DNA from: Clytia hemisphaerica
Lineage: Eukaryota > Cnidaria > Hydrozoa > Leptothecata > Clytiidae
Direction of reading: 5' to 3'
DNA length: 64,000 bases
Assembly (NCBI GenBank): GCA_902728285.1
Contig: CACVBU010000274.1
Span: forward strand, 1,193,132-1,257,131
Below, one piece after another: positions 7,422-10,400 of this stretch. A program made the translations under genes and the position numbers. The notes beneath the pieces are model-generated. The model searched no databases and was not told the DNA's origin. It saw only the letters and a program-made list of their open reading frames with translations. Within the stretch, counting starts at the first letter, position 1, and each line of letters opens with the position of its first letter.

Positions 7422-10400
7422 ATGAAGCTGATTTTGATATTTTGCGTTTTGCTCGTCAACTCTTGTCAACTGGCGTATGGAAAGTGTCAGAGGTAGGTTC
7501 CTTACTATATTCTTCTACTTATTTTTTCAAGGTATGCTATGTCATTGATTGATTGATTGATTGATTGATTGATTGATTGATTGATTGATTGATTGATTGA
7601 TTGATTGATTGATTGATTGATTGATTGATTGATTGATTGATTGATTGATTGATTGATTGATTGATTGATTGATTGAGAATGATAATCCTCACGTTATTTA
7701 GGTTCTAAACAAAACATAATTTTGCTGTCATTCATAATTTACCACATCTGTTATTAGGTATCGTTAAATTTTCTTCATGAAAGTGCTTTTGTAGAAAATT
7801 GGAGGTAGAGGAGATAAATTGGGACATTATGCTGATGAGTTGATTACACGTTTTTTTTTTATAAGAACAAACTATATAAGAACATAAGGCTTCGAGGCCC
7901 AAAAATTTAAGAACATTCTAAGAACATTCTAAGGCTTTGGAGACTTAAAAACATGCATTTTCTTAAGAAATTACATCAAAATGCTCAAAAAATGCTGAAA
8001 ATAAGAACATTTTAAGAACATTTTTAGGCTTAAAATCCAAAAAACTAAGAACACCCAGAGGCTTCGAAAATTTTTGACGTTCTTATAAAAGAAAAACGTG
8101 TAAGAGCGTTTTTAGGATTTTGTGGTTGTTTGACAATAACATTAAGCTCGTGTTAAGAAATGGTAAACATTACAGCAACTGATTATGATATTCTATGTTT
8201 GTATAAGGAAAAAATTGTTGTCAGCTAATAGTGTAGCGTTTCGATGATTTGTTTATTTTTGAGTGTCGTTTTAAATGCTCTATAAGAAGAAAGCGCAATG
8301 GAAAAGATCTCCTAAAGTTATGGCTGCATGCAGAAATAGATTTTCTAAGAAAATTTTAGTAGCTCTTGGAGTTTTAGTTATTTTGTGTGTTGGATGTCCT
8401 TTCTTTGCTTTCTTAAATGTTGGCTCACCCGATGATTCACCTCTAGCCTCTACGTGGTAAGTTTTTACCGCAATTTGCAGATAAAGGCTACGGTTATGTT
8501 TTAACTTGAGTGTAATCCGTCTTCTAAACCATACTGAGCTACGATAATATCGTAGTACAGAATAACGGACATAGCTATCTGGTAAAAAATCCGTCTGTGA
8601 AAAAAATTCGTCTCTTTTTGCCAACAATTTTTTACTTGTAATGTCGGGTAAATGTGGACCAGATCTCCAAAAACCGACCTACCGGGGTGGCCACTGAAGG
8701 CCTTAGAAAATGATTGGATGAATGGATGGATGGGCTGTTACGTACTTTGAAAGAGTCAGCGTCACCGAAAATTATAAAAAGCTAAGTCCAGTACACTCAC
8801 TGTTGTTATGTTATCTCTCGTTATCATGATATGCACCATTGCAATGTCTTCCAGGAAACTAACAGATGATTGGTTGCAAGTGACGTATTGATATACTTAC
8901 AACCAATCAGGGCTGTTGGGTCCGTGATGTAATGTCAGAAGACATAGCAGTGAATAAATGAATAAATGTTCAATGGAACTCGTAACATATTGTAGTAGGT
9001 AACTAAAGTGAGATGAACATGAATTCTTGATATTCATGACGTAATCTTTTATACGGAAACACCCTAAAACACCAGGTGTTTACCATCAGTTTCGTTGTTT
9101 GTTTGAATTCAAAACTGGTGGCAAACGCCCGAAGTTTTTCATGTGTTTCCGTATAAAAGATTACGTCATGAATACCAAGAATTCATTTTCGTGGTTTCTT
9201 TATTAGTTTTGCTTTTTCTTTTTAGTTCAAGTGTTTGGCGTTGGGAATGTCAAGACAAGAGTTCGATCACCAATGAGACTCGATTGCCCAGATGTGTCAA
9301 AGTGCACGTGGACAGTGCATCAAACGAGGCAACAAGTCTCAACAAGTGTAAATTAACATGTGGAAACTCGTCAATGTTGTTTCCAAAACCATCAGGTATG
9401 ACCGAAGTTTCTTCATTTTTGGACTCGCTTAAACGGTAACCTTCTTTAGTTATGTTTCTCATGAGTCCCTTAGACTTATGTAGTTTGCTGAAAAAACATG
9501 TAGTTTCGAAAACAACATGCTTAGGTCGAGGGCTTGGCAAGACTGAAAAATGCTTATAAGAATGCTTATATCCCAAGCAAAATTTTAGGAAAATTTCGAA
9601 AATCCCAGCCAAAATTCAGGAAAATACATTTTTCGTAGGCTCAGGTAATACTTAGCATATGCTTAAATTTTTGTCATATCTGAGCCTAGATATGCTTATA
9701 TAAGTATAATGCTTATAAAAAGCATGTAAGACGAGTAAAAAGTATGAATTAGGGTCCTAACGGTCGAATGGTTAGAAAAACTTGAAAGTTTAAGTTTAAT
9801 TGCATTCAACAACTTGTCTATATTATCACAGGAACGACCCTGATTGGCAAAGACACTGTCTCCTTCTTCCCTTCGACCGCTCTCAAGTTGAAATCTTACA
9901 CTTGCCAAGGGAAGCCATGCAGTGGTCAAGTCAAATGGTTGATCACCAATGCTTTCATTGAACTGCAGAATACTTTGGATCTGACTTTGAAGGAACAAGA
10001 AAACAAGAATCACCAGGGTTCTCACCAATGTTACCGAGAAACTACTGATCGACAGATCAATGTGGATATCCAGATGACGACTGAAGAGGTATCTCTTATA
10101 CTGCTTGTAAAACAGTTCATTTTCACGGTCAAGATTAATCATGGGTAATGCAGGGCTCGCGCCACGATTTTTAAAGTGAGGGGGCCAACAAAAATATAGT
10201 AACTAAGGAGGCGCAAAATTTTCGATTTTGACCTGCCTTATTTGGCTAAAACAGCTTCCTTTTTGTTCTGATTTTCCGAAAGATAATACAAACCATGTCC
10301 CCTTTTAGAAAGGTTCTAACGTTTTTATTGGCACGCGCGCAGAAAAGAAAAACATAAGGGCCCCCCGGTGGCGCGGGCCCTGTAATGTGTAAATGATTGA

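Follow-up and report, generated by a model that had tools for sequence, protein, structure and literature searches.

Two candidate first coding exons in a hydrozoan GH20 gene predict secreted and membrane-anchored forms of one chitin-type hexosaminidase

OfHex1 (PDB 3nsm and related entries), from the moth Ostrinia, is a secreted GH20 enzyme of the molting fluid. Its residues Val327, Glu328 and Trp490 have been assigned to the +1 sugar, and Trp490 is highly conserved in all chitinolytic enzymes compared (PMC3531433). The mutant V327G gains hydrolysis of GlcNAc-beta-1,2-Man, which is still 3623-fold slower than that of chitobiose. As explanation it was proposed that the steric block by Val327 is removed; in the enzymes of Arabidopsis, Monosiga and Daphnia the Val is replaced by Ala or Ser (PMC3531433). 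The hydroid gene described here resembles that of insect FDL (fused lobes) in belonging to GH20 subfamily 2 and in its predicted membrane-associated form. In insects, however, FDL is a separate gene, whereas in the hydroid one of two first exons supplies the anchor, and the catalytic pocket holds the chitinolytic Val. Compared with OfHex1, the hydroid gene adds an anchored first exon. Deficient cleavage of the signal peptide has been proposed as a source of membrane forms (PMC2492878). The nematode HEX-2 type, for example Trichuris HEX-2, has an N-terminal membrane domain and thus an anchored layout like our form B (see below), but it belongs to subfamily 1 and its hydroid counterpart is another gene (C273, see below). 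A further parallel lies outside the family. Soluble and membrane forms of ST2 (IL-33 receptor) arise via alternative first exons or promoters, so that the start of the transcript sets the product, as we suggest for the hydroid gene. For GH20, the open-licence papers searched describe, in their titles, the starts of their abstracts and some text passages, no gene in which alternative first exons yield a secreted and an anchored form.

We analyzed a stretch of 64,000 nucleotides (the window) which carries on its + strand a complete GH20 gene from 7422 to 21355, with two candidate first coding exons and eight shared exons. The first candidate, exon A (7422..7492), translates as MKLILIFCVLLVNSCQLAYGKCQ plus 2 nt and encodes a signal peptide (MKLILIFCVLLVNSCQLAYG/KCQ). 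The second, exon B (8275..8456), translates as MLYKKKAQWKRSPKVMAACRNRFSKKILVALGVLVILCVGCPFFAFLNVGSPDDSPLAST plus 2 nt and encodes a type II signal-anchor with a 26-residue basic tail and an apolar run of 21 residues. As the earlier note had proposed, both exons are open and both end in phase 2 at good donors, which are GAG/gtaggt for exon A and GTG/gtaagt for exon B (scores 9.4 and 10.0, from a matrix based on the general consensus). An in-frame TAA lies directly 5′ of the ATG at 8275 and a second one is found one codon beyond the exon B donor. The common acceptor of both exons is at 9226 (ttttctttttag/TTCAAG), where each of them joins in frame, as the note had also predicted. The spliced models are free of internal stops and give proteins of 643 aa (form A) and 680 aa (form B). 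The leftover bases, AG of exon A or TG of exon B, are completed by the first T of exon 2, thus the junction residue is Ser in form A and Cys in form B; form A has a Cys of its own two residues earlier.

All borders of the shared exons follow the GT-AG rule. Exon 2 (9226..9395) encodes a cysteine-rich N-terminal part (SSVWRWEC...CKLTC), exon 3 (9832..10088) a part of the GH20b2 region, and exon 4 (11069..11467) the end of this region and the start of the catalytic domain. Exon 5 (11724..12015) contains YCVEPPCGQ with the Val and Glu of the +1 subsite, and its end together with exon 6 (12414..12532) encodes HAGGDE, which we take to be the catalytic motif. Exon 7 (18044..18292) and exon 8 (19031..19177) follow, the latter with the equivalent of Trp490 (GNNWCSPY), and the last exon (21128..21355) includes the stop codon. 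Intron 6 contains an insertion which is not part of the enzyme, namely a reverse transcriptase frame at 13312..15231 on the + strand (Pfam RVT_1, 109.7 bits), by our own reading of the non-LTR type. A second frame in the same intron (16418-17167) looks like a reverse transcriptase by eye and matched no Pfam family. Elsewhere in the window, a frame at 43743-44888 encodes a MATH domain of the TRAF type.

How would the two N-termini behave? In exon A, seven sites fit the simple -3/-1 rule, and cleavage after AYG is plausibly the best placed of them. In exon B, the net charge is +10 before the apolar run and -2 in the 15 residues after it, and the apolar segment has a 19-residue hydropathy of 2.78. 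With its basic tail, apolar run and acidic flank the encoded segment looks like a type II signal-anchor, and the topology signals of exons A and B differ in the way that a secreted and an anchored form would predict. By simple hydropathy and charge rules applied to the open reading frames, an N-terminal signal-anchor as known from FDL is predicted in form B alone. The ATG at 8275 is in a poor context (TTTTAAATGC). That of a second in-frame ATG, at 8320, is better (G at both -3 and +4), and a start there keeps the apolar run. This second ATG would leave an n-region of 11 residues with a charge of +4, and exon B could then be a second secretory first exon whose segment is cleaved, so that both forms are secreted and expression alone differs. 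However, the apolar run is with 21 residues long, and the only two -3/-1 sites (after ILC and after CVG) are both within the run. We regard a cleaved exon B segment as improbable. A signal-anchor in form B is the reading that we follow below.

The shared body belongs clearly to GH20. Pfam reports the catalytic domain PF00728 with 320.9 bits (residues 272-629 of form B) and the GH20b2 domain PF14845 with 49.9 bits, both over the cut-off. Among the 52 solved sequences matched, the six best chains, which we take to be OfHex1 entries, score 525-532 bits; then come 5oar_B with 275 bits, four HEXB beta-chain entries with 221-223 bits and HEXA chains with about 194 bits. The protein is thus closer to OfHex1 than to the lysosomal HEXA and HEXB, as judged by scores and not by a tree. 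To OfHex1 the identity is 47.2% (265 of 561 aligned residues), and both proteins have the N-terminal VWRW-C and CK-C region as well as Val, Glu, Trp and Trp in the +1 subsite. In the alignment the equivalents of OfHex1 Val327, Glu328, Trp483 and Trp490 are found in EPWQQYCVEPPCGQ and GNWLVKGNNWCSPY, where the OfHex1 numbering is inferred as chain position + 22; Trp483 is presumably also a +1-subsite residue of OfHex1. On this evidence the shared body would be a chitin-type enzyme (NAG-type, GH20 subfamily 2). The assignment comes from a single mutant study on an insect enzyme, and in view of the Ala and Ser named above we note that Val at the 327 place is a guide and not a rule for the substrate. 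The shared body has 16 cysteines. In our own reading of the alignments, four of them (YTC, KPC, HQC, AHC) are matched neither in OfHex1 nor in the paralog described next. It is our guess that the Cys near the junction of each form may have a partner among these extra cysteines.

A search of the 417-Mb assembly gave at least 15 GH20 matches on at least 8 contigs, which are C195 (the window), C735, C281, C245, C273, C497, C594 and C49; the analysis covers all of these except C49. C735 carries a close paralog. Over eight exon pieces taken together, it shares 390 of 593 aligned residues (66%) with the window protein. Its identity to OfHex1 is 244 of 513 residues. As both proteins are about 47% identical to OfHex1 and 66% identical to each other, the comparison suggests that the two genes split after their lineage had left that of insects. 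The paralog has Leu at the Val327 place. Its first exon is of the signal-peptide type (L011 4970-5058, donor score 5.96). In the 25.4 kb searched upstream of its exon 2, none of the phase-2 candidates is of the anchor type; the candidate with the top hydropathy (1.54) is the signal-peptide exon itself. Exon A is supported by the paralog, since the latter has only the signal-peptide kind of first exon. In the paralog an in-frame TAA lies in an A-rich run (L011 9797-9799), 2 nt before the exon end. It could stem from an error of the assembly or from a mutation that disables the gene.

C273 and C245 contain long stop-to-stop frames of 588 and 581 aa. The best solved match of C273 is chain 8qk1 (218.6 bits), which we take to be the structure of Trichuris HEX-2 and hence of subfamily 1. 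Upstream of its long second frame with the GH20 match (L014 4257-5831) there is an exon (L014 3791-3934, MSRVRPYAIVILIFLSCTILMFWYGLPSPDQDANNQRSE) which ends in phase 0 at the donor GAG/gtaaaa and appears to encode a type II anchor. C273 thus seems to be a GH20 gene which resembles subfamily 1 and has an anchor exon of its own. HEX-2 and HEX-3 of subfamily 1 trim N-glycans in C. elegans (PMC11308363), and the C273 gene is a rival candidate for this task in the hydroid. C281, C497 and C594 gave weaker GH20 matches and are taken for the putative lysosomal HEX type. Matching GH20 fragments occur on the two contigs C497 and C594, which perhaps represent both haplotypes of a single gene. The search for relatives gave no pattern match in the viral contig collection, and none of the seven pattern matches in the prokaryote contig collection was confirmed, as is to be expected when the gene is from an animal.

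The identity of the host also bears on the enzyme roles. The only COX1 match found in the assembly is on a mitochondrial contig of 14,551 bp. With names read from the translations, its genes follow on one strand in the order cox2-atp6-cox3-nad2-nad5-(gap where rns is expected)-nad6-nad3-nad4L-nad1-nad4-cob-cox1. Hydroidolinan hydrozoans have the clusters atp8-atp6-cox3, nad2-nad5, rns, nad6-nad3-nad4L-nad1-nad4 and cob-cox1 (PMC4655093). Provided that the mitochondrial contig and the window come from one animal, the host is a hydroidolinan hydrozoan by its gene order, and the insect frame in which the earlier note had placed the two roles does not fit. With a hydrozoan host, the tasks of NAG and FDL genes need not be divided as they are in insects.

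In Golgi enzymes a basic tail next to the membrane precedes a type II anchor, and form B would have such an anchor and tail. Form B could be a Golgi-resident enzyme like FDL and form A the soluble chitin enzyme; N-glycan processing is the role which the note had assigned to the anchored form. Against this, the fly FDL has Gly at the Val327 place. A pocket open to GlcNAc-beta-1,2-Man through lack of Val at this place is not what we find in the hydroid body, as the Val is kept together with the rest of the chitinolytic +1 subsite. Fly FDL is a membrane-associated GH20 enzyme (PMC4006722) and a putative signal-anchor occurs in several insect members (PMC2492878), but form B keeps the Val which in OfHex1 is proposed to hinder hydrolysis of GlcNAc-beta-1,2-Man (PMC3531433). 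Further, the same genome contains with C273, taken as subfamily 1 from its best match 8qk1, another GH20 gene with an anchor exon. Due to this second anchored enzyme it is not forced that one catalytic body serves both places, as the note had supposed. In our view a role of form B in N-glycan processing is rather unlikely. With a chitin-type body the anchored form would be a tethered chitobiase, and since Val, Glu and Trp of the +1 subsite are kept an anchored chitobiase appears likelier than an anchored N-glycan trimmer.

Exon B itself might be unused. The open frame of 8275-8456 might be a relic or have arisen by chance, with the secreted form as the only product of the gene. The weak start context, the lack of a clear promoter in the scan described below and the paralog without such an exon speak in favor of this. 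T-rich DNA reads as hydrophobic residues, and as this also applies to the T-rich stretches of this genome we drew the chance controls from the same genome. The main control comprised 280,004 strand-bases (parts of the window and both strands of L009, L010 and L012-L018) and gave 237 start-to-donor candidates with 146 distinct donors (score at least 6, start ORF of at least 20 aa, any phase). In phase 2, only one distinct donor had a hydropathy of at least 2.5 and three of at least 2.0; none attained the 2.78 of exon B. In the other phases two donors were above 2.78, and one of these (L010) seems, by our own identification, to belong to the beginning of a genuine channel gene. A smaller control covered 109,600 strand-bases and gave 51 phase-2 candidates (donor at least 4), not one of which combined a hydropathy of at least 2 with a donor of at least 6. 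We also generated Markov copies of the 1733-nt intron, 3000 of first order and 3000 of second order. Two of the first-order copies and one of the second-order copies contained a phase-2 start exon that reached a hydropathy of 2.5 with a donor of at least 6. Because none of the 6000 copies reached a hydropathy of at least 2.5 together with a donor of at least 8, exon B is unlikely to be due to chance.

Against a relic speaks that the exon is intact and correctly phased and that its donor has the top score among the 4 phase-2 donors (5 candidate ORFs) in 3001-9225, which would be odd for a relic. The region 8103-8480, which holds exon B, has itself as sole match in the genome (the search skips very common words). 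We also considered exon B as part of a transposon and rejected this, given the single match and the end of the upstream inverted-repeat element at 8103, 171 nt before the exon. Taken together, it is very unlikely that the two-exon layout of the DNA is a product of chance, and exon B is probably real. That it is unused we consider unlikely.

Upstream of exon A a pattern scan found the TATA-box-like TATAAAAG at 7277..7284 (+ strand), 145 nt before the ATG. It is a candidate promoter element of the signal-peptide form, with an inferred transcription start at about 7307. The paralog has TATAAAAG at L011 4910-4917, where the spacing to the first ATG differs and is 60 nt. The AG of a good 3′ splice site is located at 7410..7411 on the + strand, 10 nt before the ATG of exon A. 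The corresponding acceptor 7412 has a score of 4.58 by a home-made matrix, for which the 95th and 99th percentiles of the AG sites in the window (n = 3360) are 2.51 and 5.60. Leader trans-splicing is known in Hydra and Hydractinia (PMC3273482, PMC11067881), and a spliced-leader acceptor at 7412 for exon A is plausible. A possible outron would extend from about 7307 to 7411. As spliced leaders are added in hydrozoans, the 5′ ends of the mRNAs cannot be read from the promoters alone.

Upstream of exon B the signals are fewer. The pattern scan of the near upstream DNA revealed no clear core promoter. TATAAGG at 8202..8208 (+ strand) is a weak promoter candidate and the only match to the two scanned TATA patterns between exon B and the MITE-like element which lies between exons A and B (7844..8103; 25-nt inverted repeats, 96% complementary). 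A second inverted-repeat element (9015..9190; 55-nt arms, 91%) is found just before exon 2, so that exon B is flanked in intron 1 by two such MITE-like elements. A long (TGAT)n tract (7544-7676) begins about 50 nt past the exon A donor.

Form B might also be made without a second promoter, from a long pre-mRNA starting at about 7307 to which a spliced leader is added upstream of exon B. This is a variant of the two-form model. It could draw on the trans-splicing reported for Hydra and Hydractinia (PMC3273482; PMC11067881) and on a strong acceptor at 7532, from which 743 nt separate the start codon of exon B. This acceptor scores 5.32 (98.8th percentile), lies 39 nt past the exon A donor and has no obvious exon behind it. 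Its use, however, would leave the MITE-like element within a long leader sequence, and among the AG sites from 8151 to 8275 no good acceptor was found, the best score being -0.8 as against 4.58 at 7412 before exon A. We consider the leader variant quite unlikely.

Other connections of the first exons were examined and rejected. Splicing of exon A into exon B fails because the stretch from 8151 to 8275 lacks a good acceptor. With the acceptors 8225 and 8264, read by hand, the exon A frame soon runs into a stop, and the acceptor at 7532, only 39 nt past the exon A donor, was set aside. A start with retained intron before exon 2 was also discarded. Its frame is open and hydrophobic (stop-to-stop ORF 9107-9439) but has no ATG upstream of 9226.

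We suggest that the gene is used in the following way. Transcripts which start before 7422 would encode the cleavable signal peptide and thus give a secreted enzyme. Transcripts which start within intron 1, upstream of 8275, would give the form with the type II signal-anchor. Both kinds of transcript would be spliced to 9226 in the same frame, and the tethered form would have the same catalytic body with its catalytic part outside the cell or in the lumen. Its likeliest job would be the hydrolysis of chitooligosaccharides near the cell surface and not the trimming of N-glycans, possibly in the gut or in the epithelium which makes the exoskeleton. Here we infer the transcription of both exons, the second promoter, the retention in the membrane, the substrate and the tissue. 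Chitin forms the exoskeleton of many hydroids, and they feed on crustaceans. A chitooligosaccharidolytic NAG is listed for nematocyst extract of the hydrozoan Velella (PMC11509761), which fits form A.

For the two-form model we observe the open frames, their phases and donors, the GH20 domain, the residues of the +1 subsite, the single-copy DNA of exon B and the outcome of the chance controls. Counted against it are the poor context of the start at 8275, the lack of a near promoter or acceptor for exon B and the paralog without an anchor-type exon. On balance we are fairly confident, as far as sequence can tell, that the gene gives two forms, function set aside. The fuller proposal, a NAG-type gene of a hydroidolinan whose alternative first exons yield a secreted form and a membrane-anchored form acting on chitooligosaccharides, we hold to be somewhat probable. 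Of the earlier note's central claim, the two forms stand as a reading of the sequence (one signal-peptide-like and one signal-anchor-like exon, the same phase and one catalytic body), and the functional roles do not. More speculative, and in our opinion doubtful, is the idea that one cnidarian NAG-type gene provides both a soluble chitin enzyme and a membrane hexosaminidase and so resembles a possible state before the insect split into NAG and FDL.

The Val at the OfHex1 327 place is the residue to consider when a chitin role of the anchored form is weighed against an N-glycan role. If both forms are made, one gene would set the location of a chitin-type hexosaminidase by the choice of its first exon, and this outside the arthropods. 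The gene would then also offer a testable alternative to gene duplication for the origin of membrane-bound GH20 members.
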